A stretch of 64,000 nucleotides of DNA from assembly GCF_000190435.1 (NCBI RefSeq), contig NC_015152.1, positions 1,432,458 through 1,496,457 of the forward strand, written 5' to 3'. The notes under the pieces are model-generated. The model did not search any database and had not been told where the DNA came from. It saw nothing but the letters and a program-made list of their open reading frames with translations. A program made the position numbers and the translations under genes. This DNA is from Sphaerochaeta globosa str. Buddy (GTDB lineage: Bacteria > Spirochaetota > Spirochaetia > Sphaerochaetales > Sphaerochaetaceae). This document shows positions 1 to 40,709 of this stretch, piece after piece. Numbering within the stretch: the stretch's first letter is position 1; every line of letters begins with the position of its first letter.

Positions 1-859
1 GAATGAATTGGGTGACGATGCTGCTGAGAATACGGCCGCCGTAATACGTCTTATCGGTAATGGCATTGTCAGCCCCATAATAGAGGAACCCCATCATGGA
101 AGGAACCATGACCTCGCAGCCTTGTTCCTCCAGATAGGCTTGGAGGTTGTTGTTGCCCAACGGGGAGTATTTCATATAAATCTCCCCGACGATGCCAACT
201 TTGATTTTCTCCTCTTTTCTGACTGGGATGGCTGCAAACTGCTTGCAAATCTCATTGAGGTTGCGTTTCATCGCCCAACCGATGTATCCCTTGTTGTGTG
301 CAAATCGTTCACTGAGGTAGCGATTCCAGGTAGCAACCAAGGCATCGGCTTCACCTTTGCGTATCTCGTAGGGACGTACCTGATTGGAGAGAGCCATCAG
401 CAAGTCGCCATAGATAAACGCACTGTAAGCCTGCAGCAACATGAAGAAGGTGAGCTTGAACCCCGGGTTCTTTTCCATACCCTTGAGATTGAGACTGATT
501 ACGGGAATATGGGAGAGTTGGCACTTTTCCAGTGCCTTGCGAAGCAAAAACAAATAGTTGCTCGCCCTGCAACCTCCCCCGGTCTGGGTTATGGCAAGAG
601 CGACCTTGTGTGTATCGAAATTGCCATTCTTGACTGCGTCGATCAATTGGCCGATGACAAGCTGGGCAGGATAGCAGATGTCGTTGTGCACATACCTAAG
701 TCCCTCGCGAATGACATTCGGTCCTTGGTTTTCCAACAAGGCAACCTTATACCCGTGGTTTGCGAAGACTTCTTTCGCAATATTGAAATGAACCGGTGAC
801 ATATTGGGAATGAGGATGGTGTAATCCTTCCTCATTGCTTTGGTAAATACGGTACTCAT
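1..859 (-). CDS. 2-hydroxyacyl-CoA dehydratase-type subunit (HgdB/DUF2229-like), partial
   Basis: The first 286 codons lie in the window; the 3' end is beyond the left edge. The reading frame gives a start MSTVFTKAMRKDYTILIPNM, then segments such as YVHNDICYPAQLVIGQLID and TQTGGGCRASNYLF. Cysteines in these contexts are typical of the iron-sulfur-binding HgdB/BcrB-like subunits and of the C-terminal half of large activase-related proteins. The ATG at 859 overlaps the TGA of the upstream activase (ATGA), so the two are probably translationally coupled. In the family, such proteins take part in radical dehydration of 2-hydroxyacyl-CoA substrates or are uncharacterised relatives; the substrate cannot be read here. 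In many anaerobes this region is fused to the activase in one chain of about 1400 residues, here it is a separate gene. Confidence 0.75.
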   Translation of the reverse strand, partial: MSTVFTKAMRKDYTILIPNMSPVHFNIAKEVFANHGYKVALLENQGPNVIREGLRYVHNDICYPAQLVIGQLIDAVKNGNFDTHKVALAITQTGGGCRASNYLFLLRKALEKCQLSHIPVISLNLKGMEKNPGFKLTFFMLLQAYSAFIYGDLLMALSNQVRPYEIRKGEADALVATWNRYLSERFAHNKGYIGWAMKRNLNEICKQFAAIPVRKEEKIKVGIVGEIYMKYSPLGNNNLQAYLEEQGCEVMVPSMMGFLYYGADNAITDKTYYGGRILSSIVTQFI

Positions 860-3783
860 AGGCTTGAGGACTCCCCTAGGGCTGCGAGAAGACTGCGGAT
901 TCTGATCTTCACTGCACCCAAGTTTGCAATCTCGTCGATTTTTATCTGGGTATAGATTTTATCAGTTCGTCTGAGAATGTCCCGAATTTCATCGCTGGTT
1001 ACCGCATCCAGTCCGCAACCGAAGGAGACAAGCTGGATAATTTGCATGTCGGGTTGCGTGGTTACATACCTTGCAGCATCGTACATCCGGGCATGATAGG
1101 TCCATTGGTTGAGCACCGTACGCGTTTGTTTTTGCACCAAATGGCTGATGCTGTCCTCGCTGAGGACGGCGCATCCGCATTGGAGCAAAAGGCTGTCGAT
1201 ACCGTGGTTGACTTCTCCATCGATGTGGTAAGGCCGTCCGGCCAGAACCATGATCGGCCAGTTGCGCCTTCGTGCCTCCTCGATGATGATTCCTCCTTGG
1301 GTCCGTACAGCCATTTGATAGCAGCTCAGCGCTTCATACCCGTCTTTGCAGGCCTTTTTTACTTCGGCTTTCGTAACGTGGTAGTGCTCGCCCAAAACAG
1401 TGTGCAGTCTATTGGGGAGAAAGCGCTCGTCAGCGAGACTGAGGTAGTCGTTGATGAACAGGACCTTCTGTTCAAGCAAGGCCGGTATATTGTGTCTGAG
1501 CACCTCCGGATAATAGGCAACCACCGGACAGTTGAAATGATTGTCCCCCTTTTCTTCCTTGAGATTGTAACTGGAGCAGGGGTAGAAGATGGCATCGACA
1601 CCTTCATCGATAAGCTCCTGGATATGACCGTTCATCAGTTTTGCGGGATAGCAGATGGTATCGCTGCTGATGGTGGATTGTCCTTTGAGGTAGGTATTTC
1701 TGGTAGAAGGCTTGGAGACGACAACCTCGAAGCCCAGACTGGACAAGCATGCGTGCCAGAAGGGAAGCTGCTCATAGAAAGAAAGCTGCAGGGGAAGTCC
1801 GATTTTGCCTCTCTTGTTTTTCCCGGGCTGCAACGATGCAAGATACTGCTGCTTGAATGCGTACACATTGAGATTTTGTGGATTGCTGACAAAACTCTCA
1901 GGTCGTACAATACGGTCACACTTGTTGCCGCTGACCAACTTGCGTTCTCCATCGAAACTGTTGATGGTTAGCAGACAGGTATTGGTGCATCCTTTGCAAT
2001 GCACGGTGCGCGTACGATGGGAGAAGGAGGAGAGTTGCGCCAGGCTCAATGTGGTGCTGGCCTTGTGATCATTGTCGTGCTGCTCGCGTGCATACAGTGC
2101 ACAACCGTAGGCGCCCATCAAACCGGCTTCGTCAATGCGGATAACCTCACAGCCCAACTCCATCTCGAAGGAACGCAGTACTGCGTCATTGAGAAAGGTT
2201 CCTCCCTGTACGACGATATGCCTGCCCAAAAGTGAGGGATCGGTGGAACGGATGACTTTGTACAGGGCGTTTTTCACCACGCTGATGGCAAGTCCTGCAA
2301 AAATATCGGCGACACTCGCACCATCCTTCTGCGCTTGCTTGACCGAACTGTTCATGAAAACCGTGCAACGGCTTCCCAAGTCGACAGGATTCTGTGCAGT
2401 AAGGGCCAGCTGGGCAGCCTCTTCAGGAGAGTAGCCCAACGCATTGGAAAAGGTTTGCAGAAACGATCCGCATCCGGATGAGCATGCCTCATTGAGAAAT
2501 ATGTCGTCGATTACGCCATTCTCGATTTTGAAGCATTTGATGTCCTGACCTCCGATATCGATGATGAAATCCACTTCGTTCAGGAAGGTATGTGCACTTT
2601 TGTAATGTGCCATGGTTTCAACCAAGGAGTATTCGAAGTCGAAAGCGTTCTTGATCAACAGTTCCCCATATCCGGTAGAACAGGCTTTGATAATCTGAAT
2701 ATTGGGGTAGGTGGTCAAAAAGCTGGTTAAAAATTCCTTAACTGCTTGCACGGGATTGCCATTGTTCTGCTGATATCGGCTGTACAGAAGCTTTCCCTCG
2801 GTATCGATGACACAGGCCTTGACGGTGGTGGAACCAGCGTCGACCCCCAGGAAAGCTTGGCCGCTGTATGAGAGGGCATCGGCTTTGGGCAGCTTGGCCA
2901 GATCATGACGGGCTCGGAATGCCTCAAGTTGTCCAATATCCTCAAAAAGGGGAGGAATTGAAGTAAAGGCTTTGTCCATGTGGTAATGTTCGAGTTGATA
3001 CACCAAGTCGGAAAGCGAGAGATAGTGCTCCACCTTCGCCAAGGCAGTTCCCAAAGCCACAAAGTAGAGGGAGTTTTCCGGACATATGCCTTCCTGTCCC
3101 AAGGTTTGGTCAAAAGCCTTGCGTAGTGAAGAAAGAAATGTGAGCGGTCCTCCCAGGTACACAACCTGACCCTTGATCGGACGTCCCTGTGCCAGACCTG
3201 CAATGGTTTGATTCACTACCGATTGAAGAACAGAAAGGGCTATGTCCTCTTTTTCCGCTCCTTGGTTGATGAGAGGCTGAACATCACTTTTTGCAAAGAC
3301 TCCGCAGCGGGAGGCAATGGTATAGCTTTGTTTTGCCTGTTGGGCGAGGGTGTCCAATTGTTCTTGGTCGATATGCAGCAAGCTGGCCATCTGGTCGATG
3401 AACGACCCGGTTCCCCCTGCACATGTTCCGTTCATCCTCACTTCCATGTTCTTTCCCAAAAACAGGATTTTTGCATCCTCACCGCCGAGCTCGATGACGA
3501 CATCGGTTGACGGCAGATAGTGTTGGATTGCAATACGGGTAGCATAGACTTCTTGGACGAACGGGAGATGCAGCTGCTGGGAAAGCCCCATTCCGGCCGA
3601 ACCGGATAGAGTCGCAGAAATTTGCTGATCACCAAGCGTTTGAAGCAGGGGTGTCAGCATCTGTACAGCAGTCTGGGGTATTTGAGAATAGTGTCTGCGG
3701 TATGCACGATGAACAACACGCTGTTGTTCATCGAGTACTACGCATTTCATTGTAGTGGAGCCTACATCCAAACCGATTTTCAC
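856..3783 (-). CDS. Acyl-CoA dehydratase activase, two ASKHA domains plus DUF2229
   Basis: 975 residues from a GTG start at 3783, chosen because GGAGG lies 7 bases upstream (3791-3795); longer upstream starts have no ribosome site. Two BadF/BadG/HgdC ATPase domains are visible: residues about 1-270 (KIGLDVGSTTMK, NGTCAGGTGSFIDQ, SRCGVFAKSD) and about 315-560 (FLGVDAGSTTVKA, IDIGGQDIK, NEACSSGCGSF, SRCTVFMNS). The two Cys contexts in each are those that hold the bridging [4Fe-4S] cluster in HgdC. A DUF2229-type region follows (about 660-960; DTICYPAKLMNGH, YPCSSY). Known members use ATP to drive an electron into a 2-hydroxyacyl-CoA dehydratase. The next gene overlaps its stop codon by 4 bases. 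Confidence 0.85.
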   Translation of the reverse strand: MKIGLDVGSTTMKCVVLDEQQRVVHRAYRRHYSQIPQTAVQMLTPLLQTLGDQQISATLSGSAGMGLSQQLHLPFVQEVYATRIAIQHYLPSTDVVIELGGEDAKILFLGKNMEVRMNGTCAGGTGSFIDQMASLLHIDQEQLDTLAQQAKQSYTIASRCGVFAKSDVQPLINQGAEKEDIALSVLQSVVNQTIAGLAQGRPIKGQVVYLGGPLTFLSSLRKAFDQTLGQEGICPENSLYFVALGTALAKVEHYLSLSDLVYQLEHYHMDKAFTSIPPLFEDIGQLEAFRARHDLAKLPKADALSYSGQAFLGVDAGSTTVKACVIDTEGKLLYSRYQQNNGNPVQAVKEFLTSFLTTYPNIQIIKACSTGYGELLIKNAFDFEYSLVETMAHYKSAHTFLNEVDFIIDIGGQDIKCFKIENGVIDDIFLNEACSSGCGSFLQTFSNALGYSPEEAAQLALTAQNPVDLGSRCTVFMNSSVKQAQKDGASVADIFAGLAISVVKNALYKVIRSTDPSLLGRHIVVQGGTFLNDAVLRSFEMELGCEVIRIDEAGLMGAYGCALYAREQHDNDHKASTTLSLAQLSSFSHRTRTVHCKGCTNTCLLTINSFDGERKLVSGNKCDRIVRPESFVSNPQNLNVYAFKQQYLASLQPGKNKRGKIGLPLQLSFYEQLPFWHACLSSLGFEVVVSKPSTRNTYLKGQSTISSDTICYPAKLMNGHIQELIDEGVDAIFYPCSSYNLKEEKGDNHFNCPVVAYYPEVLRHNIPALLEQKVLFINDYLSLADERFLPNRLHTVLGEHYHVTKAEVKKACKDGYEALSCYQMAVRTQGGIIIEEARRRNWPIMVLAGRPYHIDGEVNHGIDSLLLQCGCAVLSEDSISHLVQKQTRTVLNQWTYHARMYDAARYVTTQPDMQIIQLVSFGCGLDAVTSDEIRDILRRTDKIYTQIKIDEIANLGAVKIRIRSLLAALGESSSL

Positions 3784-3868
3784 CGAGAAGCCTCCGAATA
3801 TACAAACCATACGTAATTTTAGGAAAATGGTACAGTGAACTAACACTGTATTTGGACACTGTCAGTGA

Positions 3869-5068
3869 TTATGTCTGAATACGCAACTGACCATCAGGTC
3901 CAAAGTCAAAAACCTGTGTATCGGCAATTGCCTGTTGAAGCAACGGCTCAATGCCCATCGTCACGTAGTGCTCAGTCACTATCTGTTTGTTCGGACGGAC
4001 CAACGGGTGCTTGGGGCTGAAAATTACACAGCAATCCTCATAGGGGAGAATGGAAGTTTCGTAGGTCCCGATGCGCTTGGCAAGGTCCATGATTTCCTGC
4101 TTGTTCATACCCACCAAAGGTCTGAGGACCAATTGATCACTCATACTATCGGTAAAGGACATGCTCTCCAGTGTTTGGCTGGCTACCTGACTGAGGGCTT
4201 CTCCGGTAACGATGCAATTACCTTCCTGCTGCAACGAAATTGCATTGGCTACCTTCATCATGGAGGCGCGGAACATCAAGGTAGTCTCATCTTCCTGGCT
4301 ATGCTGCTTTATCCACAATTGGGCCTCGGTGAAGGGAACCACATGCAACCTCGTCCCCTGAAGGTAGGGGGCTATGATCGATGCCAGTGTCTTCACCTTT
4401 TCCAAGGCTTGGTCGCTGGTGTACGGATAGGCGTGGAAATAGATGCACTCCATTTTCAGTCCCCTCTGGGCCATGCGATAGGCTGCAACAGGACTGTCGA
4501 TGCCTCCTGAAAGCAGAAGCATGCCCTTGCCGGCAGTGGTGACGGGAAGTCCCCCCGGTCCGCTTTTTGCAGAGGTGAAGAGGTAAGCCTTGTCCCTGAT
4601 CTCGCAATTGATCGTCATGTCCGGATTCTTTACATCGACGGTAAGGTTTGGATGAACGCTGTGGACCACCTCACCAAGTATGCAGTCAATTTGGTAGCTG
4701 TTTAGTGCAAAATTCTTGTCAGCCCGTTTGGTAATGGACTTGAAGGTGCCGACACCCTTGCTGAAGGGTTCGTCCTCCATCAGAAGACGGGCAGTCTCTT
4801 TGATGATTTCAATATCCTTGGCGCAGCGAAGACACCTCGAATACCCCACCACTCCGAACGTGGTACTGAACGCCCTTTCTACCGTTTCCTTTGGGCAGCT
4901 GTTCTCTATTTCAAAGAAAATTCGGCCTTTCTGCTTGGAGACTTGGGTGCGGTATCCCTTGAGCTTGTTCTTGATATTGATCTTAAGCCGCTTTTCAAAA
5001 AAATCACGGTTCAAACCTTTGAGGGAGATTTCTCCCAATCTAACTAAATACAATGTAGCGTCGTTCAT
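3869..5068 (-). CDS. thiI: tRNA 4-thiouridine synthase ThiI (no rhodanese domain)
   Basis: 399 residues. An N-terminal ferredoxin-like plus THUMP region (about 1-170) precedes the PP-loop SGGIDSP at 187-193, which adenylates the target uridine. The segment PYEDCCVIFSPKHP (Cys346/347) corresponds to the conserved ThiI cysteine. The chain stops at this point, so the C-terminal rhodanese domain of the 482-residue E. coli protein is absent, as in many Gram-positive and spirochaete ThiI proteins that take sulfur directly from a dedicated cysteine desulfurase. That partner is the gene just upstream: its TGA overlaps this ATG (ATGA at 5065-5068), which fixes the start. Confidence 0.93.
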   Translation of the reverse strand: MNDATLYLVRLGEISLKGLNRDFFEKRLKINIKNKLKGYRTQVSKQKGRIFFEIENSCPKETVERAFSTTFGVVGYSRCLRCAKDIEIIKETARLLMEDEPFSKGVGTFKSITKRADKNFALNSYQIDCILGEVVHSVHPNLTVDVKNPDMTINCEIRDKAYLFTSAKSGPGGLPVTTAGKGMLLLSGGIDSPVAAYRMAQRGLKMECIYFHAYPYTSDQALEKVKTLASIIAPYLQGTRLHVVPFTEAQLWIKQHSQEDETTLMFRASMMKVANAISLQQEGNCIVTGEALSQVASQTLESMSFTDSMSDQLVLRPLVGMNKQEIMDLAKRIGTYETSILPYEDCCVIFSPKHPLVRPNKQIVTEHYVTMGIEPLLQQAIADTQVFDFGPDGQLRIQT

Positions 5069-6204
5069 GCGTTCTCCCGGTAAAGTTGTGTAATTGCTCC
5101 AACCAAGGCTTGGACCTCTAGCAGGGTGGTTTCCTTGGATAGTGATATGCGGATGCTGTTCTTTGCAAGCTGGGGTGAGAACAACATCGAGGACAATACT
5201 CCCTGCGACTTCTGCTTGGCGTTGTTGGAACACGCCGATCCACTGGAGACACAGAAACCTTGGTCGAACAGCATTCGGGTGAATACTTCGCTAGGGAGTG
5301 AAGGATGGGCCACGTTCAGGATATAAGGCGAACAATCCTTCTGCGGTGAAAGAATGGGTAAAAAGGCCAGATGCTCGCGTAGATATGCATTCAGGCTCAT
5401 CACCTGATCATAATTGCTCTGCAGATGCAGATACGCATCCTTGATAGCCTGATGCATCGCTGCAATTCCCCCGAGATTTTCGGTACCCGCCCTCAGCCCT
5501 TTCTCCTGGTCCCCTCCGCGTGAAAGGCTTTCGATGCCGGCATTGGTGTTGTAGAGCAACCCTACACCCCGTGGTCCATGCAGTTTATGGGCACTGAAGG
5601 ATGCACTGTCCACCCCAAGGGAGCGAAGGTCGAACCCGATTTTTCCCAAAGCTTGGGTTGCATCGGTATGGAAGTGAATCTTGCGGTTGTTGTGCTCTTT
5701 TTCGAAAGAACGAACCACCTCGACCAAAGTTGCAATATCCTGTACTGAACCAACGACATTATTGACCAGCATGACACTGACAAGTCGTGTATCCGCTGTC
5801 AGGGCTTTTAGCAAATCCTCTTTTTGGACGAATCCCTTAGGCGCTGGAAGTATGACTATCTTCCAACCCAACTGCTTCAGCAATCGTGCATATTCGGAGA
5901 CCGAGGGGTGCTCAATGCCGCTGAGGATGACTTGGCCTTTGCGTTCCTTCCAAATAAGGCTGTTCAGGATGATTGCATTGGCTTCGGTCGCCCCACCGGT
6001 GAATGTCAAGGTTTCTGCTCCGACACCCAGCTGTGAGGCGATGTCCTGTCGAATCTCCTCGAGTAAGGCTTTTGCTTCTCTTCCTTCCCGATGGAGGGAT
6101 GATGGATTGCCTCTATAGTGTTGTACCACCTTCGTATATGCGCCAAGTGAGGATTCACTTATTGCAGTGGTGGCTGCATTATCAAAATAACGTATCTCGT
6201 GCAT
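5065..6204 (-). CDS. Cysteine desulfurase (NifS/IscS-like), ThiI partner
   Basis: 379-residue class V PLP enzyme. FDNAATT starts the chain; SFSAHKLHGPRG carries the PLP lysine (K207); SSGSACSNNAKQ carries the persulfide cysteine (C325). It transfers sulfur from cysteine to acceptor proteins. Overlap with thiI indicates it supplies sulfur for tRNA s4U. The ATG at 6204 was chosen because MHEIRYFDNAATT matches the family N-terminus. There is no convincing Shine-Dalgarno site, and a predicted promoter (TTGCAA-17-CACAAT) ends 7 bases before this ATG, so the mRNA may be leaderless. It is divergent from aroB. Confidence 0.92.
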   Translation of the reverse strand: MHEIRYFDNAATTAISESSLGAYTKVVQHYRGNPSSLHREGREAKALLEEIRQDIASQLGVGAETLTFTGGATEANAIILNSLIWKERKGQVILSGIEHPSVSEYARLLKQLGWKIVILPAPKGFVQKEDLLKALTADTRLVSVMLVNNVVGSVQDIATLVEVVRSFEKEHNNRKIHFHTDATQALGKIGFDLRSLGVDSASFSAHKLHGPRGVGLLYNTNAGIESLSRGGDQEKGLRAGTENLGGIAAMHQAIKDAYLHLQSNYDQVMSLNAYLREHLAFLPILSPQKDCSPYILNVAHPSLPSEVFTRMLFDQGFCVSSGSACSNNAKQKSQGVLSSMLFSPQLAKNSIRISLSKETTLLEVQALVGAITQLYRENA

Positions 6205-6211
6205 GGCCCAC

Positions 6212-6240
6212 ATTGTGCGACAATGCAAGGATTTTTGCAA
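6212..6240 (-). promoter_or_regulatory. Predicted promoter of the cysteine desulfurase-thiI operon
   Basis: On the minus strand TTGCAA (6235-6240), 17 bases, then CACAAT (6212-6217). Only 7 bases separate the -10 box from the ATG at 6204, so transcription would start at or next to the start codon. Read from sequence alone. Confidence 0.4.
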
Positions 6241-6261
6241 GCACGGCCTACGTGTTGGTTC

Positions 6262-6291
6262 TTGTCTTGCACCCCTGCCGTAGGGTATAAC
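6262..6291 (+). promoter_or_regulatory. Predicted promoter of aroB
   Basis: TTGTCT (6262-6267), 18 bases, TATAAC (6286-6291). The -10 box ends 6 bases before the aroB ATG at 6298, again implying a leaderless transcript. It overlaps no other gene and is divergent from the promoter of the cysteine desulfurase. Confidence 0.4.
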
Positions 6292-6297
6292 AAGGCT

Positions 6298-7362
6298 ATG
6301 AAGATATTAACAACCACTACCCTCGACCAAGGTAAAACAACGGATATTCTGCTTGCTGACGATTTGAAGGATTTATCAACTCACCTCGGAAGTTATGGTC
6401 GTTCGGTCATGTGGGTTTTTGATACCAATACGGCCAAATTATTCAAGCAGCTGCCCCCGGCCCATGTCGTTCTGGAGAGTGGGGAGAGTTCCAAGAATCT
6501 CGCTTCGCTTGAGCGAATCCTGTCCACCTCCCTGGATGAAGGATTGGCACGTGACGGTCGCATCATTGGTTTCGGCGGTGGTGTGGTCTGCGACCTCTCC
6601 GCCTTTGCTGCTTCTGTGTATATGCGTGGTTGCCGGCTCACCCTTGTTCCCACCACGTTGCTTGCGATGGTCGATGCCGCAGTAGGGGGGAAAACAGCGG
6701 TAGATTTTCGGGGAATGAAAAACATGGTCGGCTCGTTCTACCCAGCCAGCGAGGTGCTGGTATGCATCGATACACTGAGAACGCTCAGCGACAAGGAGTT
6801 TCTCAACGGTCTTGCCGAGGTTATCAAGCACGCCCTGCTCAGTCAGAATGAGGAGCTGTATAAACTCCTCCTGGTGAAAAAGAACGAAATACTCAGTCGC
6901 GATCCTAAAACCCTTGCAACCTTGGTTGAGCTTTCCTTGGATGTAAAGAAGTGGTATATCGAGCAGGACCCAACCGAAACCAAAGGCATCAGGCAGATAC
7001 TCAATCTTGGACATACCTTTGCCCATGCCCTGGAGTCTTCCTCCCACTTCGGTAGTTGGAGCCATGGCGCTGCCGTTGCATGGGGCTCTTGCCGGGCTTT
7101 GGAAGCAGGCCTTGCCTTGCAGGTAACCGAAAAAGCTTATGCAACAGGTGCTGCAAAACTTTTTAAGAGCTATGGCTACGATATCGATCACCGTATCGGC
7201 CGCGGCGATTGGATTGAATTCCGTGACCACCTGCTCAAGGACAAGAAAAAAGCGGACGGCAAGGTCCTTTTTGTCCTCCTGGAAGGGCAGGGAAAAGGCG
7301 TGCTCCGTCCGCTTGAAATGCCGTTGATCCAGCATCTCGTAATAGCAAAGCCGATCTTCTAG
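6298..7362 (+). CDS. aroB: 3-dehydroquinate synthase
   Basis: 354 residues, the normal family length. The NAD-binding segment IIGFGGGVVCDLSAFAAS, PTTLLAMVDAAVGGKTAVDF and the zinc-ligand segment NLGHTFAHALE are all present, as is GLAEVIKHALL. It converts DAHP to 3-dehydroquinate, the second step of the shikimate pathway, in the cytoplasm. It stands alone between divergent and convergent neighbours; its stop is 1 base from the convergent hrpA stop. No clear ribosome site precedes the ATG at 6298, and a predicted -10 box lies 6 bases upstream. Two other shikimate/chorismate-related genes (aroH, an aroA homologue) lie elsewhere in the window, not in the same operon. Confidence 0.95.
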   Translation: MKILTTTTLDQGKTTDILLADDLKDLSTHLGSYGRSVMWVFDTNTAKLFKQLPPAHVVLESGESSKNLASLERILSTSLDEGLARDGRIIGFGGGVVCDLSAFAASVYMRGCRLTLVPTTLLAMVDAAVGGKTAVDFRGMKNMVGSFYPASEVLVCIDTLRTLSDKEFLNGLAEVIKHALLSQNEELYKLLLVKKNEILSRDPKTLATLVELSLDVKKWYIEQDPTETKGIRQILNLGHTFAHALESSSHFGSWSHGAAVAWGSCRALEAGLALQVTEKAYATGAAKLFKSYGYDIDHRIGRGDWIEFRDHLLKDKKKADGKVLFVLLEGQGKGVLRPLEMPLIQHLVIAKPIF

Positions 7363-7363
7363 G

Positions 7364-9865
7364 TTATTCGACCAGCTTCAGCAATGCTCCATACACCTTG
7401 TCAACACGCTTGGCCAGCTGCTTCTGTCCAGCTCCATCCAAGCTTTCGGCGAGTTGCAGCAACGTGAACAATGAAGTGTCCAAGGCATCAAAACAGTCTT
7501 CGACTCCCGTAAAACGATAATTGCCATTTCCGCTCTCTTCCAAAGCAACAAAATTCAAGTGGTTACGGTCCTTCTTGTTCTTCGTGAAAGCGAGCAGCCA
7601 CATCAAATTGTCCACTAAGATATCTGCGTCCTCAAGGGTATAGATACCCGATGGGGGATTGTCCAGAATGCCTTGCTCGATCTTCAGTTTTCCGTACAAT
7701 TCCAGAATTGAGAAGAACTTGTCGCCGTAATGGATGTAGAATCCGTTGTGCATGAGGGCTGCGGGGAAATTCTTTGGCCGCTTCGGAGCTTTCTCGTTTG
7801 CCTGGACTAGATAGCCGAGATCCTCGAGAGGAATGATGGCCACCAGCTTCTGCTTTTTCTTTCCCATGACCAGAGTAGGGTAGGTCCGCTTGTAAATGGT
7901 GATGGTTGCCTTTCCCTTCTCCTCGACGCGTCCCTTTTTCTCCTCCCGTTCTTCCTTCTTTGAAGGTTTTTCTCCCTTGGCAAGGGCCGAAAGCCTGGGA
8001 TAGAGCTCCACTGAGATATCATCAAGCCAAGCTTTCTCCAACGGACTGACACTGCGGGCATAGAGACGGCTTGTTTGCACGATCTCCCCCGCAATAATGA
8101 ATTGGGGAAGGGTTTTAAAATAGGCACTTCCGGGGTGTATGAATACCTGGTCGGCTGTCAAGCTCTTGTACATATTGCCTTTCGCCTTGATGCAGACATA
8201 CTGCATGAGACCGCTGGCGATGCAGCACAGGTATTCGCGAACCGTACCCCCGCTGGAAATCGGGAAGCCGATGTCAGTGCAAATCTCACCCAACTGTTCA
8301 TTGACGTGGACGATCTCCTGCATTCCCTGGAAATCGAGATAGTTACGCTTGCAGAACTTCTGTTTGGCTTCCTTGCCGACATTTGCCGTATACTGGCGAT
8401 AGAGGTTGAGGTAGGAGACAAAATCCCCATATTCGGAGGTATTGAAGCGCTTGTGGGCTGCTCGGCTGAGTTCCTCCTCCCCGGGGATCATCAAAAACGG
8501 ATTTTTGGTGGAAAGGAAGGAGACAGCAATCAACACTTCCTCCAATACATCGGGGTGGTTCATCATCGCCTCGACTATCACCCGTGAATGACGGGGAAGC
8601 AAGGGGAATCGACACATCAGGGACCCGATGGAGGTGAGCCTGCGGTATTCATCGATTGCACCGATGAAACGCAGTGTATCCTCGGCACTGGTAATCGCAC
8701 TGTGCTTGGGGCGGGTGATGAAAGGAAAGTGCTCATAGTCATAGATGGAAAGATCACTCATCCTCAATACGACTTCGCTCAGATCGGTTCTCAGTATCTC
8801 CTCGGTTCCGTAGGGCAAACGGCTCTGATAGTCTTCCTCACCGTAGAGGCGGTAACATACTCCCGGACTCGTTCGTCCCGCCCGTCCCTTGCGTTGTTCA
8901 CAACTGGAACGGCTGGTGGGCAACGGTACAAGCGAAGAGGTGAAATCCTTTTGGTTGTAGAAGTTGATTTTTGCTATGCCGCAATCGATGACCGTGGAAA
9001 TGCCGTCGATGGTTACCGACGTCTCGGCTATGTTTGTTGCAACGACGACCTTGGTTTTGCCGACGCCTGTTTCATTGAAAACAGACTCCTGCTCCTCCTT
9101 GCTCAACCGTCCGAAGAGCGGGTAGATTTCCAGCTGGTGGTCAGTGTCAGCCATATACAAGGCGTTGACGCACGTGGTGATGTCAAATTCCCCGCTCATG
9201 AAAACCAAGAGATCACCGGAACGGCGTTTTGCCTCTGACATGACAATCGAGGTAATGGCTTGTATCTGATAGTCGAGCGTTTCCCGCTCCAACGGCTTAT
9301 AGATGACTTGGACGGGATAGATGCGGGCATCGATACTGACAATCGGTGCATTGTCGAAGAACTCACTGAAAATTTTGGTATTTATCGTGGCGCTGGAGAT
9401 GATGACCTTGAAGTCATGTCGTTGCACCATGACTTCCTTCAGAAGTCCCAGGATGAAATCAATGTTCAGCGAGCGTTCATGTGCCTCATCGACCAGAATG
9501 ACTGAGTAGGAGCGAAGCAATGGGTCGGCTTTCAACTCCATGAGCAGAATGCCGTCGGTCATGACCTTGATGCGGGTATTGGGAGTGGTCGTATCTTCAA
9601 AACGCATTTTGTAGCCGACGAAACTGTCGTCCTTGCCCACCTGGTTTTTGATGAACTCACTGACGCTGAGCGTCGCAATGCGTCTGGGTTGGGTGATACC
9701 AACCTGTAATTGGTCCGCGTACCCAGCCTCGTGGAGGATCAGGGGGATTTGTGTAGTCTTTCCGCTTCCGGTGGGACTTTCGACAATGATGACTTGGTTT
9801 TTTGCAAGTCCATCAAGAATTTCCTGTCGATGTAGATACACCGGCAAATGTTTCATGTCTTTCAA
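7364..9865 (-). CDS. hrpA: DEAH-box ATP-dependent helicase HrpA/HrpB-like
   Basis: 833 residues. Motif I PTGSGKTT (31-38), DEAH (126-129), the SAT motif in ISSATINTK and motif VI QRKGRAGRTSPG are all intact, followed by HA2 and OB-like regions. It is shorter than the about 1300-residue E. coli HrpA. A Lys/Glu-rich low-complexity insert (about 637-660) and a basic segment interrupt the C-terminal part. Such enzymes unwind RNA and in E. coli and Borrelia act on mRNA or stalled ribosomes; the role here is inferred. The start is a TTG at 9865, 1 base after the hisS stop and 6 bases after AGGA; an in-frame ATG lies 9 bases further in (9856). Cotranscribed with hisS. Confidence 0.88.
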   Translation of the reverse strand: MKDMKHLPVYLHRQEILDGLAKNQVIIVESPTGSGKTTQIPLILHEAGYADQLQVGITQPRRIATLSVSEFIKNQVGKDDSFVGYKMRFEDTTTPNTRIKVMTDGILLMELKADPLLRSYSVILVDEAHERSLNIDFILGLLKEVMVQRHDFKVIISSATINTKIFSEFFDNAPIVSIDARIYPVQVIYKPLERETLDYQIQAITSIVMSEAKRRSGDLLVFMSGEFDITTCVNALYMADTDHQLEIYPLFGRLSKEEQESVFNETGVGKTKVVVATNIAETSVTIDGISTVIDCGIAKINFYNQKDFTSSLVPLPTSRSSCEQRKGRAGRTSPGVCYRLYGEEDYQSRLPYGTEEILRTDLSEVVLRMSDLSIYDYEHFPFITRPKHSAITSAEDTLRFIGAIDEYRRLTSIGSLMCRFPLLPRHSRVIVEAMMNHPDVLEEVLIAVSFLSTKNPFLMIPGEEELSRAAHKRFNTSEYGDFVSYLNLYRQYTANVGKEAKQKFCKRNYLDFQGMQEIVHVNEQLGEICTDIGFPISSGGTVREYLCCIASGLMQYVCIKAKGNMYKSLTADQVFIHPGSAYFKTLPQFIIAGEIVQTSRLYARSVSPLEKAWLDDISVELYPRLSALAKGEKPSKKEEREEKKGRVEEKGKATITIYKRTYPTLVMGKKKQKLVAIIPLEDLGYLVQANEKAPKRPKNFPAALMHNGFYIHYGDKFFSILELYGKLKIEQGILDNPPSGIYTLEDADILVDNLMWLLAFTKNKKDRNHLNFVALEESGNGNYRFTGVEDCFDALDTSLFTLLQLAESLDGAGQKQLAKRVDKVYGALLKLVE

Positions 9866-34467: not shown

Positions 34468-34479
34468 GTGAGGAGTAGT

Positions 34480-34848
34480 ATGCAAGAACCAACCATATGT
34501 GCCATTCGTGGAGCAATCTGTGTAGAGCGTGATGAACCGGCTCTCATTGAGGCTGCCGCCTGTAAGCTCTATGCATCCATTCTTGAACAAAATGGACTAT
34601 CCGAGACAAATGTTGTGAGTTTGCTCATCACCCAGACCAGTGATTTGAAGAGCAGGAATCCAGCAACCGGGCTTCGTAAAGGGGGCTATTGCAGCAGTAC
34701 CCCTCTGTTTTGTATGCAAGAGTTGGAAATCGACGGAATGCTTGGTAAGGTTATCCGCATGCTTCTCATACTGAATTACCATTCAAAGCATACTAAGCCG
34801 GTATTCCTGGATGGGGCTGAGCGTCTGCGTCCCGATTTATTGAAATAA
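34480..34848 (+). CDS. aroH: Chorismate mutase, AroH class
   Basis: 122 residues, the trimeric AroH type known from Bacillus. Active-site contexts are kept: AIRGAICVERDEP (Arg near residue 10), NPATGLRKGGY (Arg equivalent to Arg63), FCMQELEIDGMLGKVIRMLLIL (Cys75, Glu78 and Arg90 equivalents) and the C-terminal LRPDL. The Tyr108 position reads Phe (PVFLDGAERLRPDL). It converts chorismate to prephenate for Phe and Tyr synthesis. ATG at 34480 follows GAGGAG. It is followed by 203 bases without a gene before tctC. Confidence 0.93.
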   Translation: MQEPTICAIRGAICVERDEPALIEAAACKLYASILEQNGLSETNVVSLLITQTSDLKSRNPATGLRKGGYCSSTPLFCMQELEIDGMLGKVIRMLLILNYHSKHTKPVFLDGAERLRPDLLK

Positions 34849-34886: not shown

Positions 34887-34912
34887 CAATATGTAAATTT
34901 ACAATCATATTG
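34887..34912. promoter_or_regulatory. Nested inverted repeat upstream of the tct operon, candidate operator
   Basis: CAATATG (34887-34893) and CATATTG (34906-34912) are perfect arms. Between and overlapping them lies a perfect 12-base palindrome TGTAAATTTACA (34892-34903). The surrounding 203-base gap (34849-35051) is very AT-rich and holds a TATAAT near 34958 without a good -35 box. The LacI-type regulator at the end of the operon is a candidate ligand-responsive binder. Confidence 0.35.
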
Positions 34913-35051
34913 GTAAAAAGTTATGTCAATTACTCATTATTAATCCATAAGTTAGCTATAATGATGATAAATATTTGGATGAATATTGCATAAATATTTA
35001 AAAACAAGCATAATAATTGATAATTTACACATAATTCTTTAGGAGGCTCCA

Positions 35052-36080
35052 ATGCATCGTCGTATTGTTATCGCTCTCATGCTCGTCTGTACCTTGGGTC
35101 TGTTTGCAACAGGGGTTGCTGAAAACGAGGAAAACGCGTATCCACAGAAACCTATCACCATGATAGTTCCGTATGGTGCAGGAGGTACTACAGACATCAG
35201 TGGAAGACAGTTGGCCATACAGTTGGAAAAACACCTCGGCAAAAGTATTACCGTAATCAATCAGGGTGGGGCAAGCGGTTCCATTGGAGCGAGAACAGTT
35301 CTGGATGCAAAGAGTGACGGGTACACCGTTCTCTTCACCGCAGAGTCATTGGGCACCCAGCGTGTCATGGGCCTCAGTGAAATGAGTTACGATGATTTCG
35401 TTCCCATCATGGTGGCTGTCAATGACCCAAAAGTCATCGTTGTACACAAGGACTCTCCGTATCAGACGCTTGAGGATTTGGTGAATGACATAAAGAACCG
35501 ACCTGGTAAGGTGAAAATGTCCTATACAGGCCCCGGTGGCTCTGGACACGTTCAGGCCCTCATCTACAACAAAATGGGGTTGGATATGGCTTTGACTGCC
35601 TACCCGGGTGGAGCTGATTGCATTGTGGCTGTGTTGGGCAAGCAAGTTGAATTTACCAATTCAAACTACTCTACGGTGACCGGATACCTCGAAAGCGGGG
35701 ATCTTAAATTGCTGGGTATTTCTGCGTTGCAGAGACTTGCAGCTCATCCCGAGGTTCCAACGCTGTCGGAAATTCTGGTCGGCTCTGAGAAGTATCTGGA
35801 TAATCCCTTTACACCGCTCTCCTTGCTGGTAAAGGCCGATGTTCCTGCTTCGGTGGTTGATGCTTTGCGTTCTGCGGCCAAGAAAGCTGTGCAAGAACAG
35901 GGATGGAAGGATTTTGTAGCAGCCAACTCTTTGGATAAACTCTATGAGAAATATCCCGATGAAGATTCCATGCGCTCTTTCTATGCAGAATGGGAGTCAC
36001 TTGTTTCTTGGCTGTTGTATGACAATGGGGCTGCAAAAATCAGTCCTGAAAAGTTCGGTATCAAGAAATTGGATTATTAG
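35052..36080 (+). CDS. tctC: Tripartite tricarboxylate transporter substrate-binding protein
   Basis: 342 residues. A signal peptide (about 1-23, ending FATGVA) is followed by YPQKPITMIVPYGAGGTTDISGR, the Bug/TctC signature, then VINQGGASGSIGARTV and GPGGSGHVQALIYN. It binds the substrate outside the cytoplasmic membrane and hands it to TctAB; family ligands are mostly carboxylates, and the ligand here is unknown. AGGAGG lies 6 bases before the ATG. It heads tctC-tctB-tctA-aroA homologue-lacI, all closely spaced. Confidence 0.93.
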   Translation: MHRRIVIALMLVCTLGLFATGVAENEENAYPQKPITMIVPYGAGGTTDISGRQLAIQLEKHLGKSITVINQGGASGSIGARTVLDAKSDGYTVLFTAESLGTQRVMGLSEMSYDDFVPIMVAVNDPKVIVVHKDSPYQTLEDLVNDIKNRPGKVKMSYTGPGGSGHVQALIYNKMGLDMALTAYPGGADCIVAVLGKQVEFTNSNYSTVTGYLESGDLKLLGISALQRLAAHPEVPTLSEILVGSEKYLDNPFTPLSLLVKADVPASVVDALRSAAKKAVQEQGWKDFVAANSLDKLYEKYPDEDSMRSFYAEWESLVSWLLYDNGAAKISPEKFGIKKLDY

Positions 36081-36088
36081 GAGCTTGC

Positions 36089-36532
36089 ATGGCAACGCAT
36101 CAGAAACGCAGTACGACCTTTTTTGAAGGGATTGGATTCCTTCTTCTTGCTTGTGGTCTTTGTGTATATGCACTTGTACATCATATGCAAGCAGACATTG
36201 AGTGGAGACAATCCCCGTATCTATTCCCCCTGTTGATTGCCTTATTCTTGCTTCCCCTTTCCCTGTCAATAATGAGACAGGGTTTGGGGGAATCTGCACA
36301 CAAAGATGAAGAATTCCAAGGTAAGCCAACCTTGGTCATGATCTTGGCAACAACACTGTATATAGCAAGCATGGGGTTTCTCGGTTTTGTTGCCAGTACC
36401 TTTCTCTTTCTTTTGTGTATCATACGTTACTTGGGGGAAAAGCGATGGGCAGTGTCCATAGGTCTGTCTCTGGTATTCCCTGTGGTGCTGTATGTGCTTT
36501 TTGCCATGCTTCTGCATGTTATGTTGCCTTAG
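36089..36532 (+). CDS. tctB: Tripartite tricarboxylate transporter small membrane subunit
   Basis: 147 residues with four membrane segments (FFEGIGFLLLACGLCVYALV; SPYLFPLLIALFLLPLSLSI; TLVMILATTLYIASMGFLGFVASTFLFLLCII; VSIGLSLVFPVVLYVLFAMLLHV), the TctB layout. It is weakly conserved in sequence and identified by topology and position between tctC and tctA. Starts 8 bases after tctC. Confidence 0.88.
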   Translation: MATHQKRSTTFFEGIGFLLLACGLCVYALVHHMQADIEWRQSPYLFPLLIALFLLPLSLSIMRQGLGESAHKDEEFQGKPTLVMILATTLYIASMGFLGFVASTFLFLLCIIRYLGEKRWAVSIGLSLVFPVVLYVLFAMLLHVMLP

Positions 36533-36544
36533 GAGTGTGGAGTA

Positions 36545-38032
36545 ATGGCTGATCTGATGGGAATTCTTTCGTTTGCTTTGGATATTCGTTTTGTGCTTTT
36601 GGTTTTTGTCGGGTCGGTGGCCGGCTTGTTTGTAGGAGCGATACCCGGTTTATCGGTTTCCATGGCAACAGCCTTGTTGGTTTCGATTACCTACTCGTGG
36701 CAGACTAGCGATGCACTGGCGACCATAATGGGCGTGTATGTTGTTGGTGTTTTCTCAGGAGCGCTTTCAGCAATACTGATCAATATTCCTGGAGCTCCCT
36801 CCTCGGTGGTGACCACCTTGGACGGCTTTCCCATGGCAAAGCGTGGACAGGCGTATGCTGCAATGTCTTATGCTATCGTGTACTCTTTCGTAGGTACCAT
36901 TTTTGGCTTCATAGCACTGTTTCTCGTAGCAAAACCAATATCTTCGCTTGCCCTGCGCTTTACTCCGATGGATTATTTTCTGCTTGCCTTATTCGGGTTG
37001 ACCACCGTAGGCTCGCTGACCAGCAAACAATTTTCCAAAGGTTTGATCAGTGCAGCTTTGGGATTGCTTTTCAGTATGATCGGTATCGATTCGGTCATGG
37101 GTACTGCTCGTATGACCTTTGGAATACGCAATCTGCAGGCTGGTATCAACATTGTTCCGGCTTTGGTGGGTTTGTTTGGATTCTCTGAGGTCCTGATGAG
37201 CATCTCTTCTTCACTTGAAGACGGGGAAGTGAGTAAGGTATCAAAAACGCCTATTCGATTGAAAGAGTTGCTTCGCCATTTTCCTCTCTCTCTTTGGTAT
37301 GCCACTATCGGTGTATTTGTAGGAGCATTGCCCGGCGCCGGAGGGCCTGTAGCTGCCTTTCTGGCCTATAGCCAGGCCAAGCGGGTGGTCAAAAACCCCT
37401 CTGTACCGTTTGGTGAAGGAGCCGTGGAAGGCATTGTTGCCAGTGAGACGGCCAATAATGCCTGTATCGGGGGTGCTATGATACCCATGCTTACCTTGGC
37501 AATTCCCGGTGATGCGGTAACAGCCATTATTCTTTCGGTCTTTTATGTGCATGGTCTGCGTCCCGGTCCTATGTTCATTCAAACCAGTGGTGATATGTTT
37601 CAGGCCATTGTGGCAGGCGGTTTTGTTGGAAGCTTCTTTTTGTTGCTGCTGGGATACCTGGCTGCCCCGAGGATCAGCAAAGTGCTCACCATTCCCAAAC
37701 GGGTGTTGCTTCCCTTGGTAACTGTCTTGTGCGTCATTGGTTCGTTTGCAGCAAACAATAGGATATTCGATGTCATTCTGATGCTTTTCTTCGGTCTATT
37801 GGGTTTTGCCATGCGTCGTCGTTCCTATTCTGTAGCTCCGATGACACTGGCCATCGTACTGGGTGGTATGATGGATTCCAACTTCAGACGGGCTGTCAGT
37901 CTTGCTTCCAGCGAAGATCACGTGCTTTTTGCTTTGTTTGGAAGGCCGATAACGATTATCCTTCTCCTTCTTGTGCTAGGCACCCTTGTTTCAAACAGCT
38001 CTGTTTTTACGCGTAAGAGGAATCATCCATGA
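36545..38032 (+). CDS. tctA: Tripartite tricarboxylate transporter large membrane subunit
   Basis: 495 residues, about twelve membrane segments. The family signatures GLFVGAIPGLSVSMATALL, SAILINIPGAPSSVVTTLDGFPMAKRGQA, GALPGAGGPVAAFLAYSQAK and ETANNACIGGAMIPMLTLAIPGDAVTA are intact. It is the conducting subunit of a secondary transporter driven by an ion gradient. AGGAG precedes the ATG. Its TGA overlaps the next gene's ATG by 4 bases, tying the EPSP-synthase homologue to transport. Confidence 0.95.
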   Translation: MADLMGILSFALDIRFVLLVFVGSVAGLFVGAIPGLSVSMATALLVSITYSWQTSDALATIMGVYVVGVFSGALSAILINIPGAPSSVVTTLDGFPMAKRGQAYAAMSYAIVYSFVGTIFGFIALFLVAKPISSLALRFTPMDYFLLALFGLTTVGSLTSKQFSKGLISAALGLLFSMIGIDSVMGTARMTFGIRNLQAGINIVPALVGLFGFSEVLMSISSSLEDGEVSKVSKTPIRLKELLRHFPLSLWYATIGVFVGALPGAGGPVAAFLAYSQAKRVVKNPSVPFGEGAVEGIVASETANNACIGGAMIPMLTLAIPGDAVTAIILSVFYVHGLRPGPMFIQTSGDMFQAIVAGGFVGSFFLLLLGYLAAPRISKVLTIPKRVLLPLVTVLCVIGSFAANNRIFDVILMLFFGLLGFAMRRRSYSVAPMTLAIVLGGMMDSNFRRAVSLASSEDHVLFALFGRPITIILLLLVLGTLVSNSSVFTRKRNHP

Positions 38033-39321
38033 ATGTACAGGTAAAACCAGGTCCCCTGAAGGGGAAAATCCAAGTCCCCGGTTCCAAAAGTCATACCATT
38101 CGATCGGTATTGTTGGCCACGCTTGCCCAAGGGCAGACTTGCATCGAGAACCCGCTGGCCAGCGGCGATGGACTGAGTGCCTTACGCGCTGCACGTGCGT
38201 TTGGTGCGATTGTCGACCAAAGTCAGCAACGTTGGGTTGTGCAAGGCAGGGGAGGGAATCTGCTGGTTCCGCAAGATGTGGTGGATACGAAAAACTCGGG
38301 GACCACCACCTGTCTGTTTACATCGGTGGCCGCACTGGTAGATGGCTATACGGTTATTACCGGTGATGAACAAATTCGAAGAAGACCGATTCTGGGTCTG
38401 GTCGAGGCACTCAATACCTTGGGAGCGACTGCTTTCCTAACCAGACCGAAGCAAGGCTGTCCACCAGTGGTGGTCAAAGGTCTTTTGCAGGGTGGTGAGG
38501 TTTCCATAGAGGGAAAGAACAGTCAGTATGTTTCAAGCCTCTTGCTTTCAGCCCCGTTAGCCAAGCGCACTACCGTCATACATGTCCACAATGCACTGGA
38601 AAAACCCTATGTCCAACTGACGCTTGACTGGATGAAACGACTTGGTGTAGAGGTGGAAAACCCTGAACAGTACACTCGGTTCACCATTGAAGGGGGACAA
38701 AGGTATCACGGTGGGAATTTTCTGATTCCAGCCGACTGGTCTGCTGTAGCGTTTCCCTTGGTGGCTGCTGCAATAACCAACTCCGATCTGGTGCTTACCG
38801 GCCTGGATTTTTCAGACTCCCAAGGTGATAAGCGGATTGTAGAAATACTCACTTCGTTTCGGGCCAATATCCAGAGGCAGGGAGAAGGGGAGTTACGCAT
38901 TATGGGGAATGCTCCCTTGCAGGGTGGTTTGACGATTGATTTGTCCGACATACCTGATGCCCTGCCTGCGTTGGCCGTCTTGGCCACTCAGGCTGAAGGA
39001 CAGACGGTTTTTATCAATTTGGAACACGTCAGGCAGAAAGAAACCGACCGTGTTGAGGAAATGACTCTGAAACTGAATGCACTTGGTTGCAACCTGCGGA
39101 TGGAAAACGATTGTTTGGTAGTTGAAGGACCGACTCGGATTCAATCGGGTATTGTGTCCTCGTCGGATGACCATCGCATTGCCATGGCGCTCGTAGTTGC
39201 TGGTTTGGCTGCTCAGGGTGAGATTGTAGTAACCGATGCGCAGTGTGCCGATGTATCGTTCCCAGGCTTTTTCTCAAAATTGGCCGAATGTGGTGCTGAC
39301 CTGTCCATACAGGAGGAGTAG
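38029..39321 (+). CDS. EPSP synthase (AroA) homologue with altered active-site positions
   Basis: 430 residues, full length for the enolpyruvyl transferase family. Kept: PGSKSHTIRS (K20, S21, R25), NSGTT (89-93), the PEP-site Arg in RRRP (R119), NSQYVSSLL, SDIPDALPALA (D310), KETDR (338-342) and DDHRIAMAL (R383). Changed: the position of E. coli Arg100 reads Cys95 (GTTTCLF), and that of Lys411 reads Val409 (CADVSFPGFF in place of a K-S/T-x-P pattern). Both are important in known EPSP synthases. It may use a different substrate or may be weakly active. It is translationally coupled to tctA and followed by a LacI regulator, an unusual setting for aroA. Family membership is secure; function is open. 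Confidence 0.85.
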   Translation: MNVQVKPGPLKGKIQVPGSKSHTIRSVLLATLAQGQTCIENPLASGDGLSALRAARAFGAIVDQSQQRWVVQGRGGNLLVPQDVVDTKNSGTTTCLFTSVAALVDGYTVITGDEQIRRRPILGLVEALNTLGATAFLTRPKQGCPPVVVKGLLQGGEVSIEGKNSQYVSSLLLSAPLAKRTTVIHVHNALEKPYVQLTLDWMKRLGVEVENPEQYTRFTIEGGQRYHGGNFLIPADWSAVAFPLVAAAITNSDLVLTGLDFSDSQGDKRIVEILTSFRANIQRQGEGELRIMGNAPLQGGLTIDLSDIPDALPALAVLATQAEGQTVFINLEHVRQKETDRVEEMTLKLNALGCNLRMENDCLVVEGPTRIQSGIVSSSDDHRIAMALVVAGLAAQGEIVVTDAQCADVSFPGFFSKLAECGADLSIQEE

Positions 39322-39323
39322 CT

Positions 39324-40382
39324 TTGAATACCAAGAAAGTAACAATAACCGATGTTGCCAAAGAGGCCGGACTTTCCATTGCGACCGTATCGCGGGTGAT
39401 AAATAATGCACGCAATGTCGACGCTGCTTCTGAAAACTTGATTCGGGAGGCAATGAAAAAGCTTGGATATGTTCCTTCGGTCAAGAAGCAGAAGATATCG
39501 TTGCTTGCCATACTTGTACCAAACTTGGAAAACCACTTTTTTTCAGCCGTGGTTGAAGGGGTTATGAAGGAGGCGAATCGGGCACGTTGCCATGTAGTTG
39601 TGTACTCAGCGAATGGTAGTGCCGACCAGGAAGCCCAATGCCTAATCCAAGCAGCTTCCCTTGGCGTTTCGGCGCTTCTTTTCTGTCCGCTCTCCGACGC
39701 CGCCTCAACCTTGCTTCCAACGCTTTTTGCACCGGATTTCCCTTTGCTGATAGTGTATCGGAGAGACTATCTGAAACATGCAAATCATATCTATTACAAC
39801 AATGTGGAAGGAGGGTATCTCGCTGCCAAGTATTTGCTTAGAAGCAACCATCGGCATATAGCATTCTTCGCAAGTTTCTGGCAGAGTCCGATGGATGGTG
39901 TGGATCAGCTGATACCATACCTGGACCATCCCAACCGTGGCAGTTATTCCTCGCTTGACCGAATGGAAGGGTATAGGCGGGCTTTGGCAGAATACTCAAT
40001 TTCGCTGGAACCATCCCTGCTATGCATGACGGGCTATGATTTTTCCAGCGGCTATACTACAGCAAAAGAATTTTTGTCTCGCCTTTGTGACTTCGATGCC
40101 ATCATCTGTTGCAACGATGCAGTTGCCGCCGGCGTACTGCAAGCTTTGGATGAGCAGCGCATTGCTGTTCCCGAACAGGTCTCAATTCTCGGCTATGATG
40201 ACTCTTTTCTCGCTGAGATTGCCCGACCGGCACTCAGCAGCATCCATCAGGATCCGCGTCTTCTTGGAACAAAAGCATTTTTGCAGATATGGGAACGTAT
40301 GGCTGGTAAGCATGGTGGGGATATTGTACTCCAGCCAACTTTGAAGATTCGTAGTTCATCGCGGATGCGGGAGTTGCCATAA
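39324..40382 (+). CDS. LacI-family transcriptional regulator
   Basis: 352 residues, TTG start 5 bases after AGGAGGAG. N-terminal helix-turn-helix TITDVAKEAGLSIATVSRVINN with hinge residues (about 5-60), then a periplasmic-binding-protein-like effector domain (LLAILVPNLENHFFSAVVEGV, CNDAVAAGVLQALDEQRI, ILGYDDSFLAEIARPALSSI). It probably senses the tct substrate or a product and controls this operon; the palindromes upstream of tctC are candidate sites. Two bases separate it from the AroA homologue, so it is autoregulated if this holds. A hairpin follows its stop. Confidence 0.92.
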   Translation: MNTKKVTITDVAKEAGLSIATVSRVINNARNVDAASENLIREAMKKLGYVPSVKKQKISLLAILVPNLENHFFSAVVEGVMKEANRARCHVVVYSANGSADQEAQCLIQAASLGVSALLFCPLSDAASTLLPTLFAPDFPLLIVYRRDYLKHANHIYYNNVEGGYLAAKYLLRSNHRHIAFFASFWQSPMDGVDQLIPYLDHPNRGSYSSLDRMEGYRRALAEYSISLEPSLLCMTGYDFSSGYTTAKEFLSRLCDFDAIICCNDAVAAGVLQALDEQRIAVPEQVSILGYDDSFLAEIARPALSSIHQDPRLLGTKAFLQIWERMAGKHGGDIVLQPTLKIRSSSRMRELP

Positions 40383-40412: not shown

Positions 40413-40419
40413 GTTTGAG

Positions 40420-40491
40420 AGCCGACTGTCAGGATTGAACTGACGACCCCGAGATTACAAGTCACGTGCTCTACCGCTGAGCTAAGTCGGC
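40420..40491 (-). tRNA. tRNA-Thr (anticodon TGT)
   Basis: Read on the minus strand: acceptor GCCGACT paired with AGTCGGC, D stem GCTC/GAGC, anticodon loop CTTGTAA (TGT, Thr), T arm GTCAG-TTCAATC-CTGAC. The anticodon stem has one T-T mismatch. CCA is not encoded. Confidence 0.95.
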
Positions 40492-40503
40492 TTGGACTGT
40501 TGC

Positions 40504-40532
40504 AATATACCGGCAGAAAAACTCTCTGTCAA
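40504..40532 (-). promoter_or_regulatory. Promoter of tRNA-Thr
   Basis: Minus strand TTGACA (40527-40532), 17 bases, TATATT (40504-40509), 12 bases before the mature 5' end. Near-consensus sigma-70 type. Confidence 0.8.
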
Positions 40533-40576
40533 GTCGTGTGAAAAAGTCTGTGATACCAGTTTTTTTTCAACAGCGG

Positions 40577-40605
40577 TTGACAAAAGATATAATAGTTTGT
40601 AATGT
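40577..40605 (+). promoter_or_regulatory. Promoter of tRNA-Tyr
   Basis: TTGACA (40577-40582), 17 bases, TAATGT (40600-40605) with a TG-like extension; 18 bases before the tRNA. A TATAAT at 40588-40593 is too close to this -35 box to pair with it. Confidence 0.6.
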
Positions 40606-40623
40606 ACCTTTGTCTTTTGGCAT

Positions 40624-40705
40624 GGAGAGGTTCCCGAGCGGCCAAAGGGGGCAGACTGTAAATCTGTTGGTTACACCTTCGAAGGTTCGAATCCTTCTCT
40701 CTCCA
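40624..40705 (+). tRNA. tRNA-Tyr (anticodon GTA)
   Basis: Acceptor GGAGAGG with TCTCTCC, long variable arm, anticodon loop CTGTAAA (GTA, Tyr), T arm GAAGG-TTCGAAT-CCTTC, discriminator A. CCA is not encoded. Closely resembles bacterial class II tRNA-Tyr. Confidence 0.96.
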
Positions 40706-40709
40706 CTTG

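Follow-up and report, generated by a model that had tools for sequence, protein, structure and literature searches.

A LacI-family regulator and a tripartite tricarboxylate transporter share a predicted switch with the sole aroA gene of Sphaerochaeta globosa

Introduction

The shikimate and quinate importers ShiA and QsuA are single-protein carriers of the major facilitator superfamily (MFS), and aroA, the gene encoding 5-enolpyruvylshikimate-3-phosphate (EPSP) synthase, is usually regarded as a constitutive biosynthetic gene. Here we analyze an operon in a 64,000-nt stretch of the Sphaerochaeta globosa str. Buddy genome (NC_015152.1, positions 1,432,458 to 1,496,457; hereafter, the window) in which aroA is predicted to be under the control of a dedicated LacI-family repressor together with an acid importer. 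The importer belongs to the tripartite tricarboxylate transporter (TTT) family, and the operon shares with other TctCBA systems the presence of all three subunits in the order C-B-A, but differs from them in carrying aroA as a fourth gene. Like ShiA and QsuA, this candidate importer would supply the cell with an acid of the shikimate pathway; unlike them, it belongs to the TTT family and includes a binding protein instead of being a single MFS protein. A literature search turned up no paper that connects a TTT system to shikimate or to EPSP synthase.

Results

A TTT operon contains the sole aroA of a complete shikimate pathway

The source genome consists of one contig of 3,316,466 bases and is 99.97% complete. 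Five consecutive open reading frames on the forward strand of the window, each confirmed by Pfam, define the gene order tctC-tctB-tctA-aroA-lacI. Coordinates are positions within the window; identifiers starting with G denote the genomes compared and those starting with L the loci or stretches examined.

35052..36080, + strand: tctC, periplasmic solute-binding protein of the TTT importer (PF03401, 2.5e-39)
36089..36532, + strand: tctB, small membrane subunit (PF07331, 3e-21)
36545..38032, + strand: tctA, large membrane subunit (PF01970, 7e-139)
38029..39321, + strand: aroA, EPSP synthase (PF00275 EPSP_synthase, 1e-105; TIGR01356, 385.9 bits)
39324..40382, + strand: LacI-family regulator with a TTG start (Pfam LacI and Peripla_BP_3)

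The TTT subunit set is hence complete at this locus. A 4-bp ATGA overlap joins tctA and aroA, and lacI begins 2 bp past the end of aroA. The operon structure put forward in the original prediction, with aroA coupled to tctA, is borne out by these reading frames, by the overlap and the Pfam matches, and by conservation of the gene order in 10 further genomes.

The original prediction also proposed that this AroA is a divergent enzyme acting on a new catabolic substrate, an imported cyclic acid. The position of aroA in a transporter operon and the replacement of two residues important in E. coli favor such neofunctionalization, and our alignment agrees that the protein has Cys at the position of E. 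coli Arg100 and Val at that of Lys411, with the other substrate and catalytic residues retained. Yet the protein scores 385.9 bits against the EPSP synthase model TIGR01356, above its equivalog cut-off of 287.25 and over residues 12-423 of 430, and only 96.7 bits against the MurA model (cut-off 392.7). In an alignment of 107 sequences (E. coli and 106 relatives, comprising 105 spirochaete genes and one from Lachnospiraceae), K22, S23, R27, N94, G96, R124, S170, Q171, D242, D313, K340, E341, R344, H385 and R386 (E. coli numbering) are invariant. The Arg100 position is occupied by Tyr (77 sequences), Cys (14), Ser (6), Phe (5) or Thr (4) and the Lys411 position by Val (76) or Ile (30), with Arg and Lys present in E. 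coli alone. Most of the 106 relatives lacking both residues are the sole AroA match of their genome. As judged from this alignment, the replacements are a class-wide trait rather than one particular to the tct operon, and the case for an unusual AroA substrate falls with them. It follows that, in the Spirochaetota, E. coli Arg100 and Lys411 are not usable as markers of a function other than EPSP synthase.

A second, canonical aroA, the possibility of which had been raised in the original prediction, was not found in the genome by profile search with PF00275, which returned the operon gene and a weaker match at 14.8-16.0 kb that is taken to be murA. The remainder of the shikimate pathway (aroF/G, aroB, aroDE, aroK and aroC) is present. 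There are two 3-deoxy-D-arabino-heptulosonate 7-phosphate (DAHP) synthases, one fused to a putative prephenate dehydratase (L167:1612-3522) and the other in L168; aroB lies inside the window (6199-7362) and, at 275 bits, falls just short of the equivalog cut-off of 305 for aroB; aroD and aroE are fused in a single gene (L161:3969-5453), and aroK lies immediately 5' of aroC. The possibility that salvage is forced by a missing upper pathway was hence rejected. A second aroE-like gene (294 aa; L162:6736-7620, G000:C1 at ~251.8 kb), remote from the other shikimate genes, was considered as part of a quinate system and discarded, its neighbors being unrelated genes. With a sole aroA and all the remaining shikimate genes in place, the operon gene is by elimination almost certainly the EPSP synthase of the pathway, and an ordinary one. 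The same residue classes in all the spirochaete AroA proteins compared, together with the existence of orthologs without any transporter, further argue against a neofunctionalized enzyme, which we consider very improbable.

Paired palindromes flank the operon promoter

The region upstream of tctC contains two 12-bp palindromes that flank or overlap a single promoter.

34892..34903: predicted upstream operator, perfect 12-bp palindrome TGTAAATTTACA, with a footprint in relatives
34986..35014, + strand: sigma-70-like promoter TTGCAT-17-CATAAT, kept upstream of tctC
35018..35029: predicted second operator TGATAATTTACA, directly past the -10 box and 126 bp from the first

In eight genomes compared, both palindromes keep 11-12 of their 12 bases and lie 126-127 bp, or some 12 turns of the helix, apart, and the spacer between them is 40-48% identical to that of the window. 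The position and spacing of the operators are the same in every readable tct-bearing genome of the main branches and in G013. The latter genome has lost tctCBA, and both palindromes and the promoter lie directly 5' of aroA, with lacI still present. Five genomes in which neither tct nor lacI was seen (G002, G024, G008, G004 and G007; the G004 contig ends soon past aroA) also carry the promoter 5' of aroA, and they contain no operator match within two mismatches. In G016, where lacI is kept and tct has decayed, a 13-bp variant of the operator, TGTAAATTTTACA, was identified. The exact palindrome TGTAAATTTACA occurs once in the 3.3-Mb genome; no further instance pointing to a wider LacI regulon was found, looser matches not having been searched genome-wide.

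The regulator presents the helix-turn-helix (HTH) and periplasmic-binding-like domains of the LacI family, and thus resembles LacI-family repressors with paired operators in combining DNA-binding and sugar-binding-protein-like domains with palindromes 126-127 bp apart around a promoter. It departs from the typical family members in several respects. The protein is 3-5 residues short after LGY-P, where the hinge helix usually starts, in the window and in G005, G013, G018, G003, G012, G016 and G021; the operator centre is AT instead of the usual CG, and the predicted target includes a biosynthetic gene. A full hinge helix and a central CG, which are typical of the family but not universal, are thus both missing. 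The gene evolves under purifying selection, with nonsynonymous (dN) against synonymous (dS) divergence of 0.117 versus 1.5 in the G013 comparison and of 0.031 versus 0.52 in the G016 comparison.

The phylogenetic footprint of the paired operators supports the LacI control anticipated in the original prediction, and makes it likely, in our view with considerable confidence, that LacI regulates the whole operon, including aroA. Furthermore, the persistence of lacI and both operators on aroA after transporter loss in G013, and of lacI in G016, indicates that LacI probably regulates aroA itself, instead of being merely a private switch of the transporter.

The transporter block was inserted between chorismate mutase and aroA

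The neighborhoods of aroA were compared in 22 members of the genus. The gene preceding the operon in the window and the features that follow it are:

34468..34848, + strand: chorismate mutase of the AroH type (Pfam CM_1, 4e-33; TIGR01796, 86.1 bits, cut-off 82)
40419-40706: tRNA-Thr (- strand) and tRNA-Tyr (+ strand), just 3' of lacI and close to the edge of the inserted block

In genus members without transporter or LacI, the basal ones included, the orthologous aroA directly adjoins chorismate mutase. The two genes lie 5-69 bp apart in G007, G015, G023 and G011, and the pair is also present in G004, the contig of which ends shortly past aroA. In 10 further genomes (G005, G018, G001, G003, G010, G012, G019, G025, G021 and G014), tctCBA lies between chorismate mutase and aroA and is followed by lacI after aroA; G014 shows tctA-aroA-lacI alone, its contig starting inside tctA. 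Conservation of the block in 10 further genomes, with dN far below dS for aroA and lacI where compared, indicates that its gene order is not due to chance.

The tctCBA and lacI genes are limited to one clade, and the arrangement is kept across deep divergence within the genus. In a tree of five concatenated genes, the genomes lacking the block fall outside, save for G002, G024 and G008, which are placed as the sister of the window's group. This topology and the identical insertion point fit a single gain of tctCBA and lacI around aroA in the genus, followed by several losses of the transporter. Chorismate mutase, on this comparative evidence, is the ancestral neighbor of aroA and the key to the history of the locus. 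Remnants of the start of tctC and of the C-terminus of tctA persist 5' of aroA in G016, next to an intact lacI, and a weaker tct remnant was detected in G020, where 2 of 1000 shuffles score equally well. The presence of these ends in G016 and of both operators in G013 makes misassembly an unlikely cause of the gene loss around chorismate mutase and aroA. In the aroA tree the genus, with the exception of G017, is nearest to a Lachnospiraceae gene, which suggests that aroA itself may have been acquired horizontally. The gap between lacI and YkgJ in G018 and G003 revealed no pathway-related gene, one of those present reading by eye as a ribosomal protein S4 homolog.

Importers are paired with aroA elsewhere

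The survey for TTT adjacency took in about 72 further spirochaete aroA loci. In G036 (L077, reversed coordinates 494-7517) the order is lacI-tctA-tctC-tctB-aroA and the transporter belongs to a different TTT subfamily, defining an independent arrangement. This aroA is followed by a gene for a 483-aa protein without Pfam match. In G273 (L116, reversed coordinates ~4827-7750) a remnant of the TctA C-terminus lies directly 5' of aroA, which precedes a gene of the MmgE/PrpD family. The G273 AroA has Ser at the Arg100 position. Given a few TTT systems in each genome, chance alone should place one next to aroA in far fewer than one of these ~72 loci, an estimate that is rough and partly after the fact, the window locus itself having motivated the search.

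In addition, an EPSP synthase gene of a distinct clade was found beside the binding protein of a TAXI-type tripartite ATP-independent periplasmic (TRAP) transporter in nine spirochaete genomes (G006, G016, G017, G029, G038, G065, G079, G238 and G292; loci L055, L056, L058, L060, L070, L083, L086, L087 and L089) from at least four families. A fused TRAP permease and a LacI-type regulator are also present in eight of the nine loci, the contig of G038 (L070) ending inside the TAXI gene. All nine genomes also have, or are reported to have, a further EPSP_synthase-family match that scores well above the MurA range (that of G238 was not inspected). The TAXI-TRAP-linked enzymes carry the motif AENSGTGFY (AQNSGTGFY in G292), and four of the five intergenic regions examined of these cassettes contain a TGTAAACGTTTATCAATT-like sequence or a close variant of one. 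Outside the spirochaetes, a Lachnospiraceae metagenome-assembled genome contains a cluster of ~12.5 kb (L006:8800-21273) encoding aroC, aroA, TRAP dctM/dctP, aroD, two zinc dehydrogenases and aroE. The aroC in the cluster is the only copy and a second aroA lies elsewhere (L156). This cluster looks like a system for shikimate or quinate uptake feeding the pathway.

These cases raise the possibility that a single EPSP synthase clade, encompassing the genes of the window, G036 and G273, the TAXI-TRAP second copies and the Lachnospiraceae gene, has on repeated occasions become associated with acid importers that depend on a binding protein, in most cases together with LacI-type repressors. The result would be a shikimate-type uptake route in which the imported acid regulates aroA. 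We regard this generalization as rather unlikely; if true, it would amount to a type of shikimate-pathway import module that the literature searched does not describe.

Discussion

In the explanation that we put forward, the gene content, single aroA copy, complete pathway, locus history and operator footprint are computed results, whereas repressor binding and DNA looping, the identity of the ligand and that of the transported acid are inferred. A normal aroA, once simply paired with chorismate mutase, would have received a TTT importer and a dedicated LacI-family repressor in a single insertion in the genus. The repressor would bind the two palindromes that flank or overlap the single promoter, probably looping the DNA between them, and thereby switch importer, aroA and lacI together. 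Its signal is most likely a metabolite linked to aromatic biosynthesis, since loss of the importer leaves repressor and operator in place on aroA. The importer would most likely take up shikimate, quinate or dehydroshikimate, entering the pathway above EPSP synthase, and the wiring of the operon suggests that it may feed or signal to aromatic biosynthesis. Taken as a whole, we hold this explanation with about as much confidence as doubt.

Uptake of a shikimate-like acid, also contemplated in the original prediction, is possible, and an acid of the shikimate pathway is our best guess by reasoning, held with somewhat less than even confidence; the best argument for it, an indirect one, is the recurrent pairing of importers with aroA. 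Several observations weigh against this interpretation. The TctC sequence does not reveal its ligand, and with a complete shikimate pathway the cell has no need of imported shikimate. Orthologous TctCBA systems (TctC and TctA 60-70% identical) are found in other genera with no shikimate gene in the sampled neighborhoods, and the operator is recognizable only in part in the branch of G016, G021 and G020.

The occurrence of TctCBA apart from shikimate genes in G028, G279 and G315, with TctA orthologs at 69-70% identity and no aroA in the sampled neighborhoods, favors instead a general substrate and a hitch-hiking scenario, wherein the TTT imports an unrelated tri- or dicarboxylate and landed between aroA and its promoter, trapping aroA in its transcript. 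The genome itself has 14 first-look TctA candidates, making a chance neighbor a ~1% event by a rough and partly post hoc estimate, and the tRNA genes just downstream of lacI are likewise in keeping with such a landing. Mere trapping is harder to reconcile with the retention of lacI and operators on aroA after transporter loss in G013, with lacI kept in G016 and under purifying selection, with the endurance of the arrangement over deep divergence within the genus, and with the two additional cases in the class of a TTT system paired independently with aroA. We therefore see hitch-hiking as a genuine possibility, though one we would not expect to prove correct. It is also conceivable that importer and repressor handle an aromatic end product or analog, such as an aryl carboxylate or aryl-pyruvate, which would spare or signal to chorismate synthesis, so that aroA expression would fall in the presence of aromatics. 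Among the closest relatives of TctC with solved structures are Bug proteins and an aromatic-acid TTT binding protein, the terephthalate-binding protein, and the predicted LacI target is aroA plus the importer. Import and synthesis would be wanted at opposite times under this scheme, yet gene order places them on one transcript, rendering it improbable.

Should the importer of the preferred explanation transport shikimate or quinate, anaerobic spirochaetes that live on plant material would be able to salvage such acids for the synthesis of aromatic amino acids. A testable class of substrates would then also be at hand for the many TTT binding proteins that lack an assigned ligand.

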